DNA of 34,092 bases, from positions 44,794 through 78,885 of the forward strand of contig NEWT02000009.1 of NCBI GenBank assembly GCA_002869925.2. Direction: 5' to 3'. This DNA is from Nitrospira sp. CG24A. Lineage in GTDB: Bacteria; Nitrospirota; Nitrospiria; Nitrospirales; Nitrospiraceae. Position numbers and translations under genes: made by a program. The notes beneath the pieces were generated by a model, which did no database searches, was not told the origin of the DNA, and saw nothing but the letters and a program-made list of their open reading frames with translations. This document shows, piece by piece, positions 3,796 through 15,757 of the stretch (position 1 is its first letter; the number at the start of each line of letters is the position of its first letter).

Positions 3796-4328
3796 TAGAA
3801 TGTCAACCCCTCATGAATCTGTTCTGACGTTCAATTGTTCGACCACTCGGCAACGCGAATAGGAAACAGGGGCCACCCTAGAATACGTCCGATGCCACAG
3901 AGATAGGCTGCAGATTCTCCTGTGGTCGAAATCTACCCTGTAGCCGGCCTCACGTCAACTTAGCTGGAATCAGTCACAACCACGAGTCACTCGACTACGG
4001 TGGTGTTACGCGCACAAGAATACCCCCTTCACGATCGGACGATCAAGAACGAGCCACAGCTTTTTGTGTCTTGACAGATGGAGTACACGTAAGGCATTGT
4101 GTTGGCGGCCGGGGCTAGGGGTAGTCTTGTCAGGTAGTATATTTGTCAGGTAGATTGTACGTGTATGCGTGTGACAGGAATCAGACCCAACATCCATGAC
4201 ACAATCGAGATCACTCTATGCAGGGTTTGGCCGCAAGCATGAATCCTGCGAGTAATTATCTATACTGAGATTGATGAGGCAAGACCTCATTGAGAAACGA
4301 CAATCACCATTCACGAAAGGATGTGCGA
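3796..4328. other. Intergenic region upstream of the NirK cassette
   Basis: No gene is supported in this 530-base stretch. It holds two direct copies of ttgtcaggtag at 4127-4137 and 4143-4153, starting 16 bases apart. It also has a TATACT hexamer at 4261-4266 without a good -35, and an inverted repeat atgagg/cctcat at 4274-4290. Around 4020-4075 it resembles the sequence around 8277-8335, so the duplication behind the pseudogene at 7660-8190 extends into this region. The small minus-strand open frame at 4006-4197 has no family resemblance and is not called. Confidence 0.5.
4127..4153. repeat. Direct repeat, possible regulator site
   Basis: Two identical 11-base copies of ttgtcaggtag start 16 bases apart (4127-4137, 4143-4153), about 180 bases upstream of the cytochrome c gene. 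A spacing of about one and a half helical turns could suit a dimeric regulator, but this is inference from spacing alone. Confidence 0.35.
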
Positions 4329-4754
4329 ATGACGACGAGGAAGATCGGAATATCGGCCGTAATCATGGCATCTGTCTTGGTTTTTGTAGGAGGAAAGGCG
4401 TACGCTGAGGACCCAGCGCCATTGCCTGAAGTTCCGGCCGAATATGCCGACAAAAAAATGCCGGCTGGCTGGTTGACGGATCCTAAGGTCCTCGCAGAGG
4501 GAGCGCTGATTTACACCGGCGAGGTTAATCCGCAGGTCAACTGTGCCAGCTGCCATGGCAAGGATGGTAAACCAGTAAAAAAAGGCGCGAGAGATTTTCG
4601 TGACAAAGCCCAAATGGGCCGTATGTCTGAGGCCTTCTGGTTCTGGCGAGTGTCTGAAGGGGTTCCAAAAACAAAAATGAAAGCCTGGAAGTCGCAGCTG
4701 TCAGAAGAGCAGATCTGGCAGGTGATCGCGTATGAGCGTCAGTTTTCGAAGTAG
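4329..4754 (+). CDS. Small secreted monohaem cytochrome c
   Basis: This is a periplasmic class I-type cytochrome c of 141 residues. A signal peptide of about 27 residues ends AYA before EDPAP. One haem site, CASCH, follows near residue 75. A likely distal Met ligand is in the segment PKTKMKAWKSQLSEEQIWQVIAYERQF, which is the usual C-terminal helix of cytochrome c subunits. The ATG at 4329 is chosen over the in-frame ATG at 4290 because AAAGGA lies 7 bases upstream and the signal peptide begins there. It heads the cassette with the two NirK-like genes (46 bases to the next start). An electron donor role for the copper proteins is therefore plausible, but this is inference from context. Confidence 0.85.
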   Translation: MTTRKIGISAVIMASVLVFVGGKAYAEDPAPLPEVPAEYADKKMPAGWLTDPKVLAEGALIYTGEVNPQVNCASCHGKDGKPVKKGARDFRDKAQMGRMSEAFWFWRVSEGVPKTKMKAWKSQLSEEQIWQVIAYERQFSK

Positions 4755-4800: not shown

Positions 4801-5778
4801 ATGTCCAAGAGTTTTTCGCGTAGCGTGCGTCATACCGGATTGATCAGCGCATTGATCATGGCTCCGTGCCTTGCCATCAATGCAGGCGTGGTGTCGGCGG
4901 AGACCATCCAAGCCCAACTGGGGATCGCACCCAATGTTCCCCCTCCCATCACACGAACCCAACCCGCTACCGTCGTGGTCAACCTGGAAGCGAACGAGTG
5001 GGTTGGTCCGCTGAGCGACAATAACAATTATGAGTTCTGGGGTTTTAATAAGAACGTGCCAGGGCCCATGATCCGCGTCATGGTGGGCGATACGGTTGAA
5101 ATCCGCTTAAAGAACCATAAGGACAGCAAGGAAGCTCACAATATCGACTTCCATGCAATCACGGGACCAGGCGGCGGGGCTAGCCTGCTCAATAGCGAGC
5201 CAGGGCAGGAGAGCGGGGGAAAGTTTAAGATGATCATTCCTGGCATCTTTTTGTATCACTGCGCCACCGCATCGCCATCCATTCCCGAGCACATTGCGAA
5301 TGGCATGTACGGCACGATCGTAGTTGAGCCGGTTGGCGGACTTCCTAAAGTAGACAAAGAATTTTATGTCGTGCAAAGCGAGTTTTACACGAAAGACGGC
5401 GAGAAGGGCGAGACCTTGGAGTTTTCATTCGAAAATGGGTTAGACGAGCGCCCCTCCCATGTTGTATATAACGGCAATGCGAGCTCGCTGGTCAAAAACC
5501 CTCTTCGAGCCAAGGCCGGAAACACCGTTCGGATTTTCTTAACCAACGCAGGACCCAACTTTGTCGACTCTTTGCAGATCCTCGAACAGCCATTCGACAG
5601 GGTGTACTCCGAGGGTTCCTTGACCTCACCACCGGCGGAGAATGTCAAGGTTACCAAGGTTCCTGCAGGTGGCGCTGTCATGGCAGAGCTTAAAGTCAAG
5701 GCGGGCACCTATACTATCGTTGACCCAGTGAAGGATCGAAAGGACAAAGGCGCCCTTGGCCTGCTGAAGGTAGATTAG
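4801..5778 (+). CDS. nirK: NirK-like copper protein, copy 1 (lacks C-terminal type 2 ligands)
   Basis: This is a two-cupredoxin-domain protein of 325 residues related to copper nitrite reductase, with a signal peptide ending VSA before ETIQ. Using Alcaligenes NirK numbering, the type 1 copper ligands are all present: His95 as H113, Cys136 as C154, His145 as H164 and Met150 as M169. The first half of the type 2/catalytic site is present too: Asp98 as D116, His100 as H118 and His135 as H153. The second domain has lost the two residues that a neighbouring subunit contributes: His255 is Q259 in SLQILEQ, and His306 is P309 in IVDPVKD. AAGGAGG lies 5-6 bases before the ATG. The gene stops slightly earlier than copy 2, although homology continues past the stop. 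Alone it should bind type 1 copper but not form a normal type 2 site. Confidence 0.85.
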   Translation: MSKSFSRSVRHTGLISALIMAPCLAINAGVVSAETIQAQLGIAPNVPPPITRTQPATVVVNLEANEWVGPLSDNNNYEFWGFNKNVPGPMIRVMVGDTVEIRLKNHKDSKEAHNIDFHAITGPGGGASLLNSEPGQESGGKFKMIIPGIFLYHCATASPSIPEHIANGMYGTIVVEPVGGLPKVDKEFYVVQSEFYTKDGEKGETLEFSFENGLDERPSHVVYNGNASSLVKNPLRAKAGNTVRIFLTNAGPNFVDSLQILEQPFDRVYSEGSLTSPPAENVKVTKVPAGGAVMAELKVKAGTYTIVDPVKDRKDKGALGLLKVD

Positions 5779-5880
5779 AGGATCCGCCAACTAGGCCATC
5801 TACAAAGGCCTGAAGTACTCTGTAGGCAGGTGATCAGGGTGATGACCGTCACAGAGTAATCCAAAATTAAAGGAGGCGTC

Positions 5881-6885
5881 ATGTCCAGGAGTTTTTCGCG
5901 TAGCGTGCGTCATGCCGGATTGATCAGCGCATTGGTCATGGCTCCGTGTTTTGCCATCAATGCAGGCCTGGTGTCGGCGGAGACCATCACAGCCGAACTG
6001 GCGAAAGCACCCAAGGTTCCCACTCCCATCACACGAACCCAGCCCGCCACCGTCGTGGTCAACCTGGAAGCGTCCGAGTGGGTCGGTCCGATTAGCGACG
6101 ATAACAATTATGAGTTCTGGGGTCTTAATGGAATGGTGCCAGGGCCCATGGTCCGCGTCATGGTGGGCGATACGGTTGAAGTCCATTTGAAGAACAAGAG
6201 CGGCAGCAAACGCGCTCACAATCTTGACTTCCAAGCGGTCAGTGGCGGAGCCGCCCTGGTCAATGCGGAGCCCGGAAAGGAAGCCCAGATACAGTTTAAG
6301 GCCACCAAGCAAGGCCTCTTTGTCTATCGCTCCTCCACTGCGGCGCCAGCGGATATTCAACACCTTGCGAGTGGCATGTACGGCTTGATCTTAGTTGAGC
6401 CGGTTGGTGGGCTAAAGCCTGTCGAAAAAGAATTCCAGGTCGTGCAGAGCGAATTTTACATGAAAGATGGCAAGAAGAATGATACCCTAGTTTTTGCGAA
6501 TCAAAAAGTGGTAGACGCGGACGCGTCCTATGTCGTGCATAACGGCCATATGACCGCGCTGGTCAAAGTTCCACTTCGATCTAAAGTGGGAGAGACCGAT
6601 CGATGGTTCTTTGGCAATGCAGGAATCAACTTTGACTCTTCGTGGCATGTCATCGGCGAGATGTTAGACCGGGTGTGGCCAAACGGTGACGTGTCAAAAG
6701 CGCCAATTGAGAGTATCCAAAGCACCCTGGTTCCACCAGGTGAAGCTACCATAGGAGAATTTAAAGGCGAAATGCCCGGTACGTTTGTTTCGGTTGACCA
6801 CTCCATCTTCCGCATCGAGAAAGGCGCCCTTGGCCTGCTCAAGATAGATGGTCCAACTAATCCTGCCCTCTTCAAAGGGCTGTAG
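5881..6885 (+). CDS. nirK: NirK-like copper protein, copy 2 (lacks type 1 Cys and N-terminal type 2 ligands)
   Basis: This 334-residue tandem paralogue of the preceding gene has a nearly identical first 120 bases and the same ribosome binding site context. The loss is the mirror image of copy 1. In the first domain, His100 is Q118 (HNLDFQ), and His135-Cys136 is R150-S151 (YRSS). Type 1 copper cannot form and the first half of type 2 is gone, although H113, D116, H161 and M166 remain. In the second domain both catalytic residues are intact: His255 as H256 in SSWHVIGE and His306 as H307 in SVDHSIF. A 102-base gap separates it from copy 1. It could be a partner subunit that supplies His255 and His306 to copy 1, or a structural or decaying paralogue. 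Confidence 0.85.
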   Translation: MSRSFSRSVRHAGLISALVMAPCFAINAGLVSAETITAELAKAPKVPTPITRTQPATVVVNLEASEWVGPISDDNNYEFWGLNGMVPGPMVRVMVGDTVEVHLKNKSGSKRAHNLDFQAVSGGAALVNAEPGKEAQIQFKATKQGLFVYRSSTAAPADIQHLASGMYGLILVEPVGGLKPVEKEFQVVQSEFYMKDGKKNDTLVFANQKVVDADASYVVHNGHMTALVKVPLRSKVGETDRWFFGNAGINFDSSWHVIGEMLDRVWPNGDVSKAPIESIQSTLVPPGEATIGEFKGEMPGTFVSVDHSIFRIEKGALGLLKIDGPTNPALFKGL

Positions 6886-7003: not shown

Positions 7004-7525
7004 ATGAAAATAAGAAGAAGCAACTGGGTGAGCCGCATCGGGGCTGTGGGGCTGGCTGTCGGATGCCTGACGCTGGCGGGTTTTGGCTCAGGAGCCACGC
7101 CTGCCAAAGCGGAAGACTCACCGGCGGCGGCATCGCGGTTTGTCGTGCTGGAAGCCTTTAATAATGAGGCCGCGCTGGACAATGAGACTGGGCTGGTGTG
7201 GGAGACCATCCCGGCGAGAGCGGCGACGGTTTGGAAAAATGCCGCCGGTATCTGTGCGAAAAAGACCGTCGGTGGCAAAAAGGGCTGGCGCTTGCCTGCA
7301 CTCAAAGAGTTGGCGACCCTGGCGGATCACAACATATATCCTCCCCCCGCCCTCCCGACTGGACATCCCTTTTCCAACGTCGAGTTTTTTGGCTATTGGA
7401 CAGCGACCGAGCACGAAGACTATACGATGAGCGCGTGGGACGTAAACTTCGACTATGGCATCGTGGGCAACGATTTTAAGATCAATAAGAACTTTGTCTG
7501 GTGTGTGCGCGACAACGCGAACTAG
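7004..7525 (+). CDS. Secreted DUF1566 (Lcl_C) protein
   Basis: This 173-residue protein has an N-terminal signal peptide ending near residue 36 (PAKA before EDSP). A DUF1566/Lcl_C domain covers almost all of the mature chain. It shows the family's typical phrases: LDNETGLVWE, GKKGWRLPALKEL, FGYWTATE, a DVNFDYG strand and the closing VWCVRD. This C-type-lectin-like fold is found in many secreted bacterial proteins, and its ligand here is unknown. GGGGAGG at 6991-6997 sets the start. It is the last gene of the cytochrome c-NirK-NirK cassette and ends just before a strong terminator, so co-expression with them is likely. Confidence 0.8.
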   Translation: MKIRRSNWVSRIGAVGLAVGCLTLAGFGSGATPAKAEDSPAAASRFVVLEAFNNEAALDNETGLVWETIPARAATVWKNAAGICAKKTVGGKKGWRLPALKELATLADHNIYPPPALPTGHPFSNVEFFGYWTATEHEDYTMSAWDVNFDYGIVGNDFKINKNFVWCVRDNAN

Positions 7526-7659: not shown

Positions 7660-8190
7660 CAGATAAGAGCCTCTACGAAGAGCGACCTCATCGACGAGGC
7701 AATACCAGACGGCACACCGCTCGGATGGTTTCCCCTGGGATAACCCGCTCACAGGGTCCACCAACACTTAATTCCAGACGCCGGCTGCTGTGCCGAGTAT
7801 CTCCAGCCAGGTGTATCTCGCTGCCTTCTTTATCACAACCATGGGAGCGCCCCAAAAACAGAACCCCCAAAAAATCGTAAACATTAACGCGCCCAGCCCT
7901 CACGCTGCTCTGGAATCCCGCTGATTCCCCAAAATCGACCAGGCTCCGCACAGCACAATCACGGTGGTGGCAATCGCTCTCGCCTATGTAATGAACAGCC
8001 CGGATCGCGCCAGCGTATAGTGTAGCCAGCCATACAGACGCCACCTATTCACAGATTGTCGTAAACGCCACCGCGACGGCAACCTGTAATCGGACATCTC
8101 TCGTCTCGCCCCGCAGAAACCACATGAGGCTTACCATCGCGATACACCCTAAGGCATAGGGTTTTCCCACGCTCCGCTTGCTTCAAAACT
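7660..8190 (-). pseudogene. Decayed duplicate of the polytopic membrane protein gene at 2881-3795
   Basis: Long stretches closely match the intact gene in the same orientation: 7678-7735 with about 3104-3165, 7910-8010 with about 3335-3440, and 8045-8180 with about 3538-3690. The reading frame is broken into unrelated short frames, and the copy is about 70 bases shorter between matched anchors. The remnant lacks both the original start and the C-terminal tail. It directly follows the terminator of the NirK cassette, so intact gene and remnant flank the cassette as direct repeats. Confidence 0.85.
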
Positions 8191-8486: not shown

Positions 8487-9074
8487 TCAATCCTTCTCTT
8501 TTTTCTCTTCCTTCAACACCATCTTCCCTTGTGCCAGACTGGCTTTGAGATCGTGCTCAGGAACCTTCTTATGGACAAGGTTCTGATGGCAGTCAATACA
8601 GGTTGCGCCCTCTGTTTCCATCTTCTTGTGCGCAGCCTTCGCCGATGCGCCCGGGGGCTTGGTATTCTTGTGGCAAGCCCGGCAGGTCATGCTGTCCCAG
8701 CCCTTCAGCTTCATGCGTGCCCTGTAGGCAGCCTCTGGCCTGAACTCGTTGAATTTCTCGATTGTAGAGTAGTCCTTGGTAAACTCATCGATCAAGAACG
8801 GCAGTCCATCCACCACGTGCGTCCACACCGCCAGATGGAAGTTGGACAATCCCTGAGGGACGTGGCAATCCTTGCACCCTGGATCTGCACCGAGTGCCCC
8901 CCAATGCGAGGATTTTTTTAGCTCCTCATACGGGTAGGTCTCTGAATGGCAGCTCACGCAGAACTCTGTCCTCGAGATCGCAGCTTCACCGCCGAATACC
9001 ACGGCGATCGATCCGACTGCGATCACTGCGCCAAGAATCAGAGCGCCGACTGATACCCCACCCCACTCTGTCAT
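8487..9074 (-). CDS. cycB: Tetrahaem membrane cytochrome c (c-m552-like), NapC/NrfH family
   Basis: This 195-residue quinone-interacting cytochrome of the NapC/NrfH family is the presumed step that hands hydroxylamine-derived electrons to the quinone pool. One N-terminal membrane anchor spans about residues 8-28. Four haem sites follow: CVSCH 39-43, CKDCH 67-71, CRACH 131-135 and CIDCH 159-163. The C-terminus is lysine-rich. Its ATG overlaps the cycA stop codon as TAATG, so translation is probably coupled. It is the last gene of haoA-haoB-cycA-cycB, the order known from ammonia oxidisers. Confidence 0.92.
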   Translation of the reverse strand: MTEWGGVSVGALILGAVIAVGSIAVVFGGEAAISRTEFCVSCHSETYPYEELKKSSHWGALGADPGCKDCHVPQGLSNFHLAVWTHVVDGLPFLIDEFTKDYSTIEKFNEFRPEAAYRARMKLKGWDSMTCRACHKNTKPPGASAKAAHKKMETEGATCIDCHQNLVHKKVPEHDLKASLAQGKMVLKEEKKEKD

Positions 9075-9793
9075 TACTCCTCCTTGCCTATCTCGGCCGG
9101 CTTGGCATCCTTTTGGAACTCTTCATGGAACTTCGGGGTAGGCGGACCATCGAACGTGCCCGCGAGTTTGAAGTGTTCATGCATGGCCTTGTTGTTGCGC
9201 ACCATCTTCTCAAAGTCGAACGTATATTTCTTGTCTACCGTGGGGGTGAACGGGGTATAGGGTTTCTTTGCTCCCTTCCACGGTGAGCCCTCATAGTTCA
9301 GGTGGCAGGCGCTGCACTTTTCAATGAACTCAAACTCTTGTCCGGCTTCCGCGAGAGACTCGCGCGGCGTGACTTTTTTTGACTTCTCATAAGCCTCGCC
9401 GGCCTTGCGATGAACTTTGCGATAGTCTGGACCTGCGCCATGGCAGGATTCGCACCCTACACCGATCAAGAACTTGTCCGGCTCTGAAATTTCATATCCG
9501 CCTTCTGAGCCGAATCCTGTCACGTGGCAACCAATACAATCCTTGTCTTTGGTGAAGTCTTTCTTAGGGTCAAGTTTCGCCTTGACCATGGCTTTGTTCT
9601 TTTCCTTGTCCCTGTCGGCTTTGAGTGAGTCGACCGCCTTGGCATGGGCAGTCTTGAGCCATGAGTCGGCTTCGCTCTTGTGGCAATTACTGCATTTCTT
9701 TCGCCCCTCAAATGGCGTCTCAGCAGAAGCGCTTCCGGCCATAGTTGCGAATACGACGACAGCTGCTAGGGCAAATACCATGGGATACTTCAC
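9074..9793 (-). CDS. cycA: Tetrahaem cytochrome c554
   Basis: This is a periplasmic tetrahaem electron carrier that takes electrons from HaoA. A signal peptide ends ASA before ETPF. Four haem sites follow in order: CSNCH, CIGCH, CESCH and CSACH. The last is near three quarters of the length and is followed by a charged tail. The GTG at 9793 is chosen because AAAGGAGG lies directly upstream (4 bases). The in-frame ATG at 9808 would place that ribosome binding site inside the gene and has none of its own. This gives 239 residues. It sits 120 bases after haoB and overlaps cycB. Confidence 0.92.
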   Translation of the reverse strand: MKYPMVFALAAVVVFATMAGSASAETPFEGRKKCSNCHKSEADSWLKTAHAKAVDSLKADRDKEKNKAMVKAKLDPKKDFTKDKDCIGCHVTGFGSEGGYEISEPDKFLIGVGCESCHGAGPDYRKVHRKAGEAYEKSKKVTPRESLAEAGQEFEFIEKCSACHLNYEGSPWKGAKKPYTPFTPTVDKKYTFDFEKMVRNNKAMHEHFKLAGTFDGPPTPKFHEEFQKDAKPAEIGKEE

Positions 9794-9913
9794 GGGGCCT
9801 CCTTTCATCAGAAAAACTATTCGTGGTCATGCTTGAAAATTGATTATGCATTACTCTATCGAGAATGTGCAAGATTTACAATAATGGTCCTTCCGCTTTC
9901 ACCACTCAACAAA

Positions 9914-10990
9914 TCAGGTGTTCGATGGCTGCGCAGACGGAATTTTATACACCCAATAGCCTCCCTCTTTATGGACCAGCTGGACGGCTTTGAATTCGAG
10001 AGGCGACGAGTTCGTCATGGGCAGCATCTGTGCAAGCAGCGTGTCCTTGCTCTTATCATCGGTCAGGAAGTAGGCGCGCGCGTTATCCTCCGAGAGTCCG
10101 TGCACCGTTTGAGAGGTGTAGTTGTTGTCCAACAGCCAACGCTTCACCATCGCGCTTAGTCCATGCACATCACCGCCCTTCAAGGGGAAGTCCTTGTAGG
10201 CGACACCGATGCGATCAGGGCGCATCAGCCCGAGTTTGTAGAGGTCCGAGACGTGAACCACGACATAGGCTTCTCGCCCGCCAGTCAGTTCACGCAGCAT
10301 CGCTACACCCTCCGTTGGCGCTGCCGACAACGCGTCAGCAAAGCGTTGGAATTTTCCCTTCTCTTCTGCGCTTGCCGTAGAGCCCCAGAACTCGCGTTCG
10401 TATTTCTCGATCGCCTCGATTCGCGGTCGCCAGAGCGACGGCGTGATAAGAGGTCCACTGAGATGGGAGGTGAACACCGTCTCTAACCCCGTCAATAGCT
10501 GAATCTGACGCGAAGTGTCCCACCAGGCAAGTATGGCAGCGTCTTTCGGCACATGCTTGGCAAGCGCTGGCGCCAACAGGGTCAGCTCGGAGAGCTTATT
10601 GTTGACGAAAACCACTGGTTCGCCGGTGTGATTTTCCCAGGCGAGCATAACGGGCTTTGTATTTCCGCGGCGGGCAAGATAGCCTACAGCTACCGGTTCG
10701 TCCACACCGTCTACGACAATCTCTTGCTTGCTGATGCCAAGGTCAGGCCACGCATTGAGTCCAAGCTTGCTGAACTTATCACTACCACCCTCTTCCACCA
10801 AGCGGTAGTGATACGGCGCTGGGCCTGGACTGAACCATAAAAACGCAAACCAACCCAGCATAAGTAGTCCTCCCGCCACTAGGACTATTCCTAGCGACGG
10901 GAGGACTCTACTGGTTGGTCGCGTCAGCGCTGCTTCCATCGTTTGCGCTGCGCCCGTTGTCACCGCTGGTTCTTCTTGCGTCTGCTCCAT
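9914..10990 (-). CDS. haoB: HaoB, membrane-anchored partner of hydroxylamine oxidoreductase
   Basis: This is the HaoB family protein encoded next to haoA in ammonia oxidisers; its molecular role is not settled. A polar N-terminus of about 28 residues precedes a single membrane segment (about residues 30-52, [20 protein letters not shown]). A periplasmic domain without haem motifs follows (for example [17 protein letters not shown] and [17 protein letters not shown]). The ATG at 10990 overlaps the haoA end by 31 bases. A second ATG at 10939 would avoid the overlap, and neither has a clear ribosome binding site. Expected length is therefore 341-358 residues. Confidence 0.88.
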
Positions 10991-12669
10991 CCGGCGAGTG
11001 CGAGGGTGCCGGTCAGCAACAATCCGCCGCCCACGCTGCCGAGTGTAATCTTCCCGTCCGTGCTATCGAAATCCAGCAGGCTACTGGTCTTGCTCTGCTC
11101 AAGCTTGGCCACCCGTTCCATCAGCATCAGCCTATCCTTGAGCTTGGTGTCCTCGTCCATGATTTCGACATAAGCTCGGTTCATCGCTGCCCAGCCGACA
11201 GTGTAGGTGTACCCTGGATATTGGTGCGCGAGACTGACGTGCAGTTGCACCAGATGGTCCTCAGCCATTTCGAAGAGCTTAAGCTCGATCGCTGTGGGGC
11301 TATTGCCCTTCGACCAGTAGATCTGCCAGAACTGTTCAAACTGGGCCTTAGCCGGTGCCGGAGGGGCAGGCCGGTTGTTTTTCTGACCCGTAAGGAGTCT
11401 CGCATCATACTGCTTACGGACGACGTTGTGCGCCTCATCGTATTTATCGAGTCCCGCAGAGGTGCCGTTGTCAATAAACTCCATGTATGCGCGCGCGAAG
11501 CGCTCAGAGTGACAGGTTGTGCAGGTTTTGACCCACGCATCCAGGCGCTTCTGGCCCCATTCGCCAAATACAGGTTCTCTAATGCCAGGCACGAAGGGAT
11601 AGTTCGCCCAGCGAACCTTACGCACCGTGTTGTGGGTGAATTTGCCCTGGTACTCCATATGACAGCTCTGGCAGGTAGGGAAGCGCTGCCCGCCCTTGAC
11701 TACTGCATCCTTCATCTGCACATTCCAATTCCATTGACCTTTAGAGGCCTGGTACCCCAGCCCATGCTGCGAACCGTTGTAGGCTTCCCAGTTATTGTGA
11801 TCGGCGCCGCTGTGGCAGGTGCCGCAGGCTTCAGGCTTGCGGGCGTTAGCTACTGAGAATTCGTGCCTGGTATGGCAGTTGTCGCACTTGTTCTGGTTGG
11901 TGTGGCACATGGTGCAGCCGTCAGCAATCTCGCGCTGCGACATTCCGGCGTAGATGTCCGTCTCGACGTTGGCCCTGTAATCCAGCGCGTGCGACGGGCG
12001 GCCCCTCGGCCACTGGTTCTTCGGCCATAAGATCGTGTCGCGCTCGGACTGCTGCTCAGCGAATTCTTGTAGATGGCAGTTGCCGCAGACATCAGCGGTG
12101 GGCATCTTGATGTCCTTGCGGTGGTCGGCCTTATTCTTGGCAAGGATGTCGACATGGCAGTCGATGCAGCCGACTTCCTTCAAGTTCTCTTTTGCACCGA
12201 GCTTGCCAAGCGAGCGCAGGTTCGCCTCGACATCCTCTAGCTTCGCCTTCTTGTAATAGGTGTCATCATTCGGCGTGAGCTTGCGAATCTTGTCCAGATT
12301 GGCATGCGTGCTTCTCTTCCACATTGCCACCCATCCTGGCGATTCATCAGTATGACACTTGACACATTGCTCGCGCGTCGCGATATCCTTGACCGATGTT
12401 GGTGGCGTGTAGAACGACATTGGGTCGAAATACTTGCTCATTGGGATCGGCTCCCAATACTGGCCGTACTGCCCTTTCCCCGCGCCCCTGCCTGGATCCA
12501 TGTAGCGCTTCGTCAACGCCTCATGCAACTGCTTGGGAGTGGCGGATCGATCAAGGTTCAGCGCCTCATAGGTTTCCTTAGGGACGCTGGGGAAGTCTGC
12601 CTGCGCTGTCCCAGCGAGCAAGACCCCGCTGAGGACTAGAGCGCACCTCACCCAAAGTTTGGACCTCAT
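10960..12669 (-). CDS. haoA: Octahaem hydroxylamine oxidoreductase
   Basis: This 569-residue enzyme oxidises hydroxylamine in the periplasm. A signal peptide ends AQA before DFPSV. Eight haem sites are at residues 102, 168, 195, 252, 262, 282, 333 and 383 (CXXCH each). The fourth, CTMCH at 252-256, is in the P460 position of the family. The tyrosine that cross-links to P460 in this family should be one of Y487/Y489 in [19 protein letters not shown]; the exact residue is inference. A membrane segment at about 541-562 and a basic tail SRRKKNQR anchor the C-terminus. The ATG at 12669 follows AAGGAGC by 8 bases, excluding an in-frame upstream ATG. It heads the hao operon, with its own promoter. 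Confidence 0.96.
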
Positions 12670-12791
12670 AACTGAATGCTCCTTCGTTAAGTGTGCACCG
12701 CTACTCATTATGGTTGAGAAAAATTTTCCGACCTTGCGCTTACTTAATTGTGGTCATACTAACGATACATTAGTCCTACGCATGAGGCGCA

Positions 12792-12967: not shown

Positions 12968-13423
12968 CTAAGGTCTTTCACGGTCGATAACAACGGTGAC
13001 TCCATCCGTTCCAGGCTTCACTGGTTGACTCATCCCCTCTAAGTCTCCACTTTGCGGCATAGCCTGGCCGGACTTCGACAGACGAGCCACAATCACCACC
13101 ATTGCGACGCTGGAGAGTGTTCTGGACGGCATCATGCTGTTCGAGTCATCGAGCCGGAACGTAAAGGGCAAGTCTTTCTTCGTCGCCCGCATGATCGCCA
13201 CCGGCATCGGCGGGCCATTCGTCTCACGGGCAAACACAAATAACGTGTCTGTTGCGGACCCCTTGCCGGCAAGGCTCGGCGCAATACTGACCGTGCCACT
13301 GATCGCAAGCGACTGCCCGATCGGTTTAACCGGCGCAGCCGGTTCCGCCTGTACTGATGCCGCGGCGGCGAGCACTATGCCGAAGGCGAGCAGACCGCAT
13401 CTCATCAAAAACTTGTCGGCCAT
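12968..13423 (-). CDS. Secreted single-domain copy of the CcmI/CycH C-terminal domain
   Basis: This 151-residue protein has a signal peptide (ASVQA before EPAAP), followed by one complete copy of the domain found three times at the end of CcmI next door. It shares the phrases SLAGKGSATDTLFVFARE, PPMPVAIMRATKKDLPFTF, LDDSNSMMPSR, ARLSKSGQAMPQSGDLEG and VVIDRERP. In CcmI/CycH proteins this periplasmic domain is thought to help hold apocytochrome c for haem attachment, so this may be a free periplasmic version. The ATG at 13423 follows AAAGGAGC by 7 bases; upstream in-frame codons are ignored. It lies between ccmI and haoA, about 300 bases from haoA. Confidence 0.85.
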   Translation of the reverse strand: MADKFLMRCGLLAFGIVLAAAASVQAEPAAPVKPIGQSLAISGTVSIAPSLAGKGSATDTLFVFARETNGPPMPVAIMRATKKDLPFTFRLDDSNSMMPSRTLSSVAMVVIVARLSKSGQAMPQSGDLEGMSQPVKPGTDGVTVVIDRERP

Positions 13424-13690
13424 GTGCAATGCTCCTTTGTTAGAACACGACGGTTTGAATGTGCGTGCTACATAGCATATCGCGCACATGTATCTCAGTC
13501 TGGATCAGAAAATGTCAAGAAAATTTGGATGGGCGCTTTGCCTCTGCTGACATTTCAGCACGCGAGCTCGACGCGATTTCCAGATGAGCCATCGGAGGAT
13601 ACGGGCGAGAAGGCTCTAACGACTCTATGAGAAGGGTCCGCTATTCTATTATTGTGTGGCTTAAAAACAGCCGCGTGGGGGCTTCCGGGA
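13424..13690. other. Intergenic region between ccmI and the single-domain gene
   Basis: No gene is supported here. On the minus strand a TTGACA at 13518-13513 begins CTTGACAT, as in the hao promoter, but the best -10 candidates (GATACA at 18 bases, TACATG at 20) are poor. A promoter for the small gene is possible but weakly supported. Confidence 0.35.
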
Positions 13691-15757
13691 CTACGGACGT
13701 TCGCGATCAATGACGATGGTGATTCCATCTACTCCGGACTTCACAGGCTGGCTCGTCCCCTCTAGGTCTCCGCTTTGTGGCATGGCCTGACCTGACTTCG
13801 ACAGACGGGCCACAATCACCACCTCTCCTGCGCCAGAGAGTTTCCTGGATGGCATGGGGCTGGTTGAGTCATCGAGCTGAAACGTAAACGGTAAATCTTT
13901 CCTCGTCGCCCGTACGATCGACACGGGCATGGGTGGGCCACTTGTCTCCCGTGCAAACACAAATAATGTGTCCGTGGGAGAGGCTTTACCTGTCAAGCCC
14001 GGCGCCATCGTTACCGTACCCCGGATCATACGTGGCTGCTTGGCTTGCATTGCCGGCTGGACCGACGCTGTCGATTCTGCATATGGTCTCTCACGATCGA
14101 TGACCACGGTGATTCCATCTACCCCGGATTGTATCGGCTGGCTCATGCCTTCCAAATCTCCACTTTGGGGCATCGCCTGGCCGGACTTTGAGAGACGCGC
14201 CACAATCACGACTGGCCCCGCACTGGAGAGTTTCCTGGACGGCATGGGGCTGGTTGAGTCATCAAGCTGAAATGTAAACGGCAAATCTTTCCTCGACGCC
14301 CGCACGATCGACACCGGCATGGGTGGGCCGCTCGTCTCGCGGGCAAACACAAATAATGTGTCCGTGGGAGAGGCTTTACCCGCCAAGTCCGGCGCCATTG
14401 TCACCGTGCCCCGGATCGTACGAGGCTGCTTGGCCTGCGTTGCCGGCTGAGCCGGCGCGGCCGCTTCTGCAAATGGTCGTTCACGATCGATGACTACGGT
14501 GATCCCATCCACTCCAGATTGTATCGGCTGGCTCGCCCCCTCTAAATCTCCATTTTGTGGCATCGCCTGGCCGGACCTTGAGAGACGCGCCACAATCACC
14601 ACCGGTCCTGCACTGGAAAGTTTCCTGGACGGCATGGGGCTCGTCGAGTCATCAAGCTTAAACGTAAACGGCAGATCTTTCCTTGTGGCCCGTACAATTG
14701 CCACTGGCATCGGTGGGCCATTCATCTCGCGCGCAAACACAAACAATGTATCCGAGGGAGATCCTTTGCCGGCCAAGCCCGGCGACATCGTCACCGTACC
14801 TTGGATCGTACGCGGCTGTCCGGATTGCCCTGCCGGCTTGACCGGTACCGACGCTTCCGCAAACGCAGGCATCGTCTTTTGACCACCGCCAAGCTGACTC
14901 TGCGCTTCGGCAATGGCCGCCATCAGCTGTTGCGTCATTTCTGGATCGATATCCGCAGGAAGGCTCGCTCGCGCCAGTTCCCAGTCCTTGGCCGCGCGAG
15001 CAAAATCTTTCCGGTTGAACGCCACGGTCCCTGACAGCATCAGCGCTTTCACATTGCGAGGATCAATCTTGAGCGCCTGCTGAATCAGAACTTCTGGCTT
15101 CCCTTCCAGCTTACGACCTTGGACGACACCCAACGTATCCGCATAGTCGGCAAGTAACTGTGGGTCGTCAGGAAGGAGTCCCACAGCTTTCTCGTAAATT
15201 TCCACGGCCTCCCCATAACGCCCCAATCCAACATACGAACGCGCGAGCAATCCCCACCCCACACCATCATTCGGGTTCTGTTCCATTTTCTGCTTGAGTC
15301 GCTCGACCAATCCTTCGAGCGCATCAGCAGACGGGTGCACATCGTCCGCCCCCCCCTGCGCAGACAACGAGCCAGCGGGTGGCTGCGTCATGGCGAGCGG
15401 ATTCCCAAGTTGCCAGTAGAGCGCCACACTGAAGATCGGCACGATAATGGCCAGGACGACCGCTACCGGGCGACTACTGACCTGCCGGGAGGCCGTTGCA
15501 GGCGTGGTCTCAGTCGTGCCTGTTTCTTCCAGAAGACGGCGTTCGAGCTCACGCCGTGCCTGCTGATACAATTCTTCTGTGAGCACCGCGTTTGACCGGT
15601 CCTGCTCGAGTTCTGCAAATTGCTGTCGGAAAATAGACAGGGTTTTTTCTTGTTCTCCAGCGGCAACCTTGGCTGTGCGCTTGACCAACGGCCATAGCAG
15701 AAGACCGAGGATGAGAAGCGTCATACCTGAAGCGATACACCAAAATAGGATGGTCAC
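13691..15757 (-). CDS. ccmI: CcmI/CycH with three tandem C-terminal domains
   Basis: This 688-residue protein is a cytochrome c maturation factor that binds apocytochrome and passes it to CcmFGH. There are two N-terminal membrane segments (about 1-24 and 100-118) with a charged coiled region between them. A TPR region follows (about 150-285, VERLKQKMEQNPNDGVGWGL onward). Three copies of the CycH C-terminal domain lie at about 299-428, 429-558 and 559-688, with an exact period of 130 residues (390 bases). The family norm is one copy, giving around 400 residues. The start is a GTG that overlaps the ccmH stop (GTGA), with AAGGAGC upstream. A fourth, free copy is encoded next. Confidence 0.92.
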   Translation of the reverse strand: MTILFWCIASGMTLLILGLLLWPLVKRTAKVAAGEQEKTLSIFRQQFAELEQDRSNAVLTEELYQQARRELERRLLEETGTTETTPATASRQVSSRPVAVVLAIIVPIFSVALYWQLGNPLAMTQPPAGSLSAQGGADDVHPSADALEGLVERLKQKMEQNPNDGVGWGLLARSYVGLGRYGEAVEIYEKAVGLLPDDPQLLADYADTLGVVQGRKLEGKPEVLIQQALKIDPRNVKALMLSGTVAFNRKDFARAAKDWELARASLPADIDPEMTQQLMAAIAEAQSQLGGGQKTMPAFAEASVPVKPAGQSGQPRTIQGTVTMSPGLAGKGSPSDTLFVFAREMNGPPMPVAIVRATRKDLPFTFKLDDSTSPMPSRKLSSAGPVVIVARLSRSGQAMPQNGDLEGASQPIQSGVDGITVVIDRERPFAEAAAPAQPATQAKQPRTIRGTVTMAPDLAGKASPTDTLFVFARETSGPPMPVSIVRASRKDLPFTFQLDDSTSPMPSRKLSSAGPVVIVARLSKSGQAMPQSGDLEGMSQPIQSGVDGITVVIDRERPYAESTASVQPAMQAKQPRMIRGTVTMAPGLTGKASPTDTLFVFARETSGPPMPVSIVRATRKDLPFTFQLDDSTSPMPSRKLSGAGEVVIVARLSKSGQAMPQSGDLEGTSQPVKSGVDGITIVIDRERP
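13694..14863. repeat. Three tandem 390-base in-gene repeats in ccmI
   Basis: The phrase gattccatct and its variant gatcccatcc recur at 13721, 14111 and 14501, giving a period of exactly 390 bases. The units are closely similar along their length and each encodes one CycH C-terminal domain. The boundary is approximate; a diverged fourth unit forms the separate gene at 12968-13423. Confidence 0.85.

Follow-up and report, generated by a model that had tools for sequence, protein, structure and literature searches.

Tandem NirK-family genes beside the hao cluster of a Nitrospira show complementary losses of copper ligands that point to a probable heteromeric enzyme with a split active site

The window analysed here, a stretch of 34,092 nucleotides from Nitrospira sp. 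CG24A, belongs to contig C40 of a 3.36 Mb Nitrospiraceae genome and harbours two NirK-like genes in tandem on the forward strand. Copy 1 (4801-5778, +) encodes 325 amino acids and copy 2 (5881-6885, +) encodes 334 amino acids; both are supported by the ORF call, by matches to known structures and by alignment of the ligands, and copy 2 additionally by a structural model. Domain searches and synteny place a class I cytochrome c gene (PF13442/PF00034; 4290-4754, +) immediately upstream of copy 1 and a gene for an Lcl_C-domain protein (7004-7525, +) downstream of copy 2. These four genes are located upstream of cycB and on the opposite strand, such that the pair adjoins a cluster comprising cycB (NapC/NirT-type), cycA (c554), haoB and hao (8487-12708, -), which was delineated from ORFs, synteny and domains; haoB has no Pfam match and received its name from its position. 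The reverse strand further encodes a cytochrome c biogenesis protein of the CcmH/CycH type that contains three Ig_CycH domains in tandem (13691-15757, -), which is followed by a separate gene with one further Ig_CycH domain (12968-13489, -).

By inspection, each of the two NirK-like proteins starts with a Sec-like signal peptide. The genes share the same reading frame, and read-through of the intergenic stops would give a single chain of 694 amino acids. The first 34 codons of copy 1, i.e. the signal peptide (4801-4902), are 94% identical to those of copy 2 in the same genome (5881-5982), as compared to only 74-78% identity with copy 1 of most relatives. The same pattern, with copy 1 closer to its own copy 2, is seen at one further locus (L089). 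Judged from these sequence comparisons, the signal-peptide regions of the two copies look like the product of a gene conversion confined to that region.

Both copies are full-length NirK homologues with the two-cupredoxin sequence and fold. They match NirK structures over their full length (best 2dv6, 6the and 6tfd, with E-values from 1e-85 to 1e-77), and each scores 240.6 with TIGR02376, which is under the equivalog cut-off of 296.3. A model of copy 2 calculated with 36 sequences (pLDDT 88, pTM 0.84) superimposes on AniA with a Z-score of 43.3 and an rmsd of 1.3 Å over 295 residues. Copy 2 is predicted to retain the complete NirK fold, as is to be expected from homology.

Ligand positions were assigned by alignment with 2dv6 and 6the, using A. 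faecalis-type numbering for the family positions. In copy 1 all four ligands of the type 1 (T1) copper are present (H113, C154, H164 and M169), together with the N-side half of the type 2 (T2) site formed by D116, H118 and H153, which correspond to D98, H100 and H135. From translation and alignment these residues map to two motifs, HNIDFH (5137-5154, +; H113 of T1, D116 as AspCAT and H118 of T2) and HCATASPSIPEHIANGM (5257-5307, +; H153 of T2, and C154, H164 and M169 of T1). On the C-side of the same protein Q259 (5575-5577, +) replaces HisCAT (His255), L261 replaces I257 and P309 (5725-5727, +) replaces the T2 ligand His306. Copy 2 has lost the other half: Q118 (6232-6234, +) replaces the T2 ligand His100, and R150-S151 (6328-6333, +) replace His135 of T2 and Cys136 of T1, while its C-side is intact with H256 (6646-6648, +) as HisCAT, I258 in the position of I257 and H307 (6799-6801, +) as the T2 ligand His306. 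These replaced and retained positions are backed by translation, alignment and conservation. Neither copy holds the T2 ligands H100, H135 and H306 in one chain, but the set is present when both chains are taken together. The Asp98 equivalent is found in both copies and His255 in copy 2 alone.

The alignment with 2dv6 and 6the confirms what an earlier note on this DNA had read for copy 1, namely complete T1 ligands with D116, H118 and H153 next to Q259 and P309. It also shows that the lost and kept residues are indeed NirK ligand positions, a correspondence with known structures that had been set beforehand as a test. The description of copy 2 as the exact opposite stands for Q118, R150, S151, H256 and H307, with two refinements: Asp98 is shared by both copies, and three of the four T1 ligands remain in copy 2. 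The latter are H113, H160 and M165 (6217-6219, 6358-6360 and 6373-6375), and possibly they provide a weak metal site or serve a structural role.

A family-wide search of 175 Nitrospiraceae genomes, with loci drawn from the matches, yielded 17 complete tandem pairs including that of the window. The complementary ligand split is present in 17/17 of them, and conservation of the pair in related genomes, a touchstone of the earlier note, is thereby upheld. Copy 1 invariably carries Q, L and P at positions 255, 257 and 306, and in 16/16 sequences it has all four T1 ligands H95, C136, H145 and M150. In copy 2 the substitutes are Q, S, T or G at H100 (118), Q or R at H135 (150) and S or P at C136 (151); the T1 cysteine is thus Ser or Pro in 17/17, and the remaining three T1 ligands are conserved. 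Every ligand is intact in a single-gene sister family (8 members, full-length or nearly so), which is 66-71% identical to copy 1. The same holds for the T1 and T2 ligands of 13 of 14 more distant relatives, the remaining one (L116) being only 26% identical and unreliably aligned. Within each copy ~70% of all mature positions are invariant, and because of this the invariance of the retained ligands is, taken alone, weak evidence.

The genomes with the pair fall into two genera and are mostly AmoA-positive, and many AmoA-positive genomes are without it. Among 41 loci from a scan of GTDB r220 with two short peptide patterns no pair was found outside Nitrospira/Nitrospirota, although a scan relying on two such patterns does not prove that pairs are absent elsewhere.

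A maximum-likelihood tree built from 48 proteins resolves copy 1 (16 sequences), copy 2 (17) and the singles (8) as one clade each (support 100/100, 100/100 and 96/96), and the three together as one clade (100/99). The stems are long (0.27 for copy 1 and 0.40 for copy 2) and the tips short; the singles are placed nearer to copy 1 with weak support (83/77). Three clean clades inside one NirK clade imply that an intact gene was duplicated and that the halves were lost once per stem. Parsimony on the sequence record would have an intact ancestor duplicate once, with the complementary losses following in a single round. Since there was one loss event per stem, the 17 genomes do not represent 17 independent losses. 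Median whole-gene dN/dS values are 0.247 for copy 1, 0.229 for copy 2 and 0.229 for the singles, indicating that neither copy is decaying and that both are under purifying selection. The preference of the earlier note for division of labour over decay is thus well supported, given that both copies are conserved, that selection is purifying (~0.25 and ~0.23, the Ka/Ks comparison it had proposed) and that the intact singles likely reflect the ancestral state. As the named genomes with the pair are mostly metagenome-assembled, we also considered an assembly artefact or early pseudogenes. We reject this reading, to which we assign next to no probability, because the pair recurs with the same residues in 17 genomes from several projects, its frames are intact and its dN/dS is ~0.25.

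Substitutions fixed in one copy concentrate on opposite sides of the active site. Fourteen positions are shared by the singles and copy 2 and altered in all copy 1 sequences, and eight of these belong to the WHxIGE/HSxF segments that surround H255 and H306. The converse set, altered in copy 2, comprises 26 positions and includes 118, 153, 154, 155 and 158. Counted as fixed changes at the site, copy 1 has eight on the C-side and none on the N-side, and copy 2 has six on the N-side and one on the C-side (Fisher p = 0.0014). Tested separately, the site enrichment is strong for copy 1 (~3e-7) and modest for copy 2 (0.015). If each copy randomly loses two of the five T2-site residues, an exact complementary split arises in ~6% of cases, so that the case depends on complementarity together with conservation, the intact singles and synteny, and not on the split alone.

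The pairs have a common gene order of cytochrome c, copy 1, copy 2 and Lcl protein, and they are found near cycB-cycA-haoB-hao wherever the contig extends far enough. The Lcl_C-domain gene follows nearly every pair whose contig reaches that far. The same cytochrome c gene precedes most singles, but within the loci examined neither hao nor the Lcl_C-domain gene was found beside single nirK genes. In one assembly (RSF6, L088) a gap covers the start of copy 1. The metagenome-assembled genome CG24B (L098) has an intact copy 2. At 7823-8003 of this locus it lacks a ~3 kb segment, present in the close relative RSF1, that carries the genes for the cytochrome c and copy 1; roughly 110 bp of unrelated sequence takes its place, and a search for copy 1 elsewhere in this genome did not find it. 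The missing segment may be a deletion or an assembly fault.

A genome with copy 2 alone would fit a reading in which the copies act apart. Copy 1 would then form a homotrimer with T1 copper and without a normal T2 site, serving as an electron carrier or using a two-His copper site for a new reaction, and copy 2 would be a separate scaffold, sensor or copper-binding protein. The complete T1 ligands of copy 1 fit such a role, and its Q259 and P309 are fixed and do not drift, as might be the case in a re-tuned site; copy 2 likewise retains H95, D98, H145 and M150 despite the lost T1 cysteine. Separate action leaves unexplained, however, why the losses are exactly complementary across the interface and why the two genes are almost constantly adjacent, and it offers no reason for copy 2 to keep H255, I257 and H306 without their H100 and H135 partners. 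We regard it as unlikely, though deserving of some weight.

In NirK the residues H306 and H255 are the contribution of the neighbouring subunit. The T2 copper sits at the subunit interface (PMC4104443), with two His ligands supplied by one chain and the third by its neighbour (PMC3596801). The ligand assignment agrees with the proposal of the earlier note that the split in the tandem pair coincides with this interface. The two copies have lost opposite halves of the active site and hence probably function only in a mixed complex. We consider a heteromeric NirK with a split active site the best explanation of the sequence data, with a probability of roughly 0.7. The two copies would be the two subunit kinds of a single NirK-family copper enzyme in the periplasm, derived from an intact cytochrome-linked nirK that was duplicated in tandem. 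Copy 1 would have lost the T2 half that is lent to the neighbour (H255 and H306), and copy 2 the T2 half for its own use (H100 and H135) plus the T1 cysteine. We infer co-assembly, presumably into NirK-like trimers or multiples of them. Catalytic T2 copper would be bound only where the D98/H100/H135 face of copy 1 meets the H255/I257/H306 face of copy 2, while a homotrimer of copy 1 or of copy 2 would set its remaining half-site residues against a lost half. A ring of three subunits, whether 1-1-2 or 1-2-2, has exactly one such copy1-to-copy2 interface and thus at most one T2 site per trimer. The earlier expectation of a complete site at every interface of this kind therefore holds in that only this interface unites both halves, but it amounts to one site per trimer at most.

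Several points limit the case for a heteromer. A fused copy1-copy2 AlphaFold model (pLDDT 60, pTM 0.46) is too poor to judge the interface, its alignment having 19 rows of which only three cover the copy 2 half. The chance level of the split and the general invariance given above weigh against it, as do CG24B, with copy 2 but neither copy 1 nor the cytochrome c, and the low yield of no more than one complete site per trimer. Copy 2 might instead be a dead or structural subunit whose part is to stabilise mixed trimers, its retained residues being structural and the working site lying elsewhere or nowhere. Pseudoenzyme subunits are common after duplication, and ~70% of the copy 2 positions are invariant in any case. 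Yet a copy1-copy1 interface cannot form a three-His T2 site, which would leave a complex without normal T2 copper although both genes are under purifying selection, and we judge this reading improbable.

The genome that contains the window also has a separate, intact canonical NirK on contig C29 (L071). In the region 45230-49886 of that contig (genome G000) it lies ~4 kb from the AmoA gene of the same genome. In another genome (G150, L062) a canonical-type NirK adjoins a single-type nirK, and the contig begins with an AmoA fragment. The presence of the canonical enzyme allows that one or both copies assemble with it and not with each other. Such an arrangement appears very improbable, as this enzyme shares only ~33% identity with copy 1 and, with complete sites itself, requires no partner.

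In the heteromeric NirK favoured here, the composite T2 site would be supplied by the T1 copper located in the contributing copy 1 subunit. Electrons would pass between T2 and this T1 copper via the Cys154-His153 bridge, and the adjacent cytochrome c would donate or accept them. The cytochrome c encoded at 4290-4754 is the likely redox partner, by analogy with NirKs that are linked to haem. The hao neighbourhood suggests NO handling, and most plausibly the enzyme would interconvert NO and nitrite, whether by oxidation of the NO that HAO releases or by nitrite reduction. The NO-to-nitrite enzyme of comammox ammonia oxidation is not yet known (PMC6478695, PMC8115096), and in comammox papers NirK figures either as a conventional enzyme whose role is unclear or as a candidate NO-oxidising enzyme (PMC6478695; PMC8115096; PMC12903955). 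For the pair, oxidation of HAO-derived NO to nitrite is a hypothetical role that derives from its position beside hao. With many AmoA-positive genomes lacking it, the pair is not a general NO-oxidising enzyme (NOO) and is not required for comammox generally. We tentatively propose, as a possible though doubtful extension, that in comammox Nitrospira of clade A2 and of a subset of clade B a heteromeric NirK with T2 copper only at copy 1-copy 2 interfaces was taken into the hao cluster to serve as the enzyme oxidising NO to nitrite, its activity depending on both gene products. Owing to its position beside hao, the pair is a concrete candidate, open to test, for the handling of NO during comammox ammonia oxidation. 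In annotation each gene is counted as a nirK in its own right; as neither gene could alone make a normal enzyme, counting two nitrite reductases would mislead nitrogen-cycle surveys.

Two nirK genes beside the HAO cluster have been described in the nirK passages of Palomo et al. 2022 (PMC9714041) for comammox clade A2 and some clade B, and these duplicates are almost certainly the same genes, in the same synteny, as the pair analysed here. The nirK passages of the main text of that paper make no mention of copper-ligand loss or a heteromeric enzyme. In PMC open-access text we found no earlier report of a ligand split in tandem nirK genes and no description of a heteromeric NirK. The duplication was already known; the matching ligand losses appear to be unreported. 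To our knowledge, NirK has been treated as a homotrimer so far. AniA (1kbv, 5tb7), the NirKs of R. pickettii and Hyphomicrobium (3ziy, 2dv6) and that of Bradyrhizobium (6the) share the two-domain NirK core, the fold and the ligand positions with the pair at 40-46% identity. These enzymes are homotrimers or multiples thereof with all ligands in each chain, whereas here the ligands are spread over two genes. The single nirK family of Nitrospira (Rifle clade B, L090; palsa_1310, L094; CG24E, L096) shares a tree clade with the pair and in most cases has the cytochrome c gene upstream, but it consists of one gene with all ligands, in contrast to two genes with the ligands divided and hao nearby. 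As a natural example, the pair cleanly shows how duplicated subunits can share out an active site, and relatives still carry the intact single gene for comparison. Among heteromeric enzymes with split sites or dead paralogous subunits, trypanosome deoxyhypusine synthase has an active site divided between subunits after duplication. It is an unrelated enzyme without copper, and its likeness to this NirK-family pair lies in the split that followed duplication.
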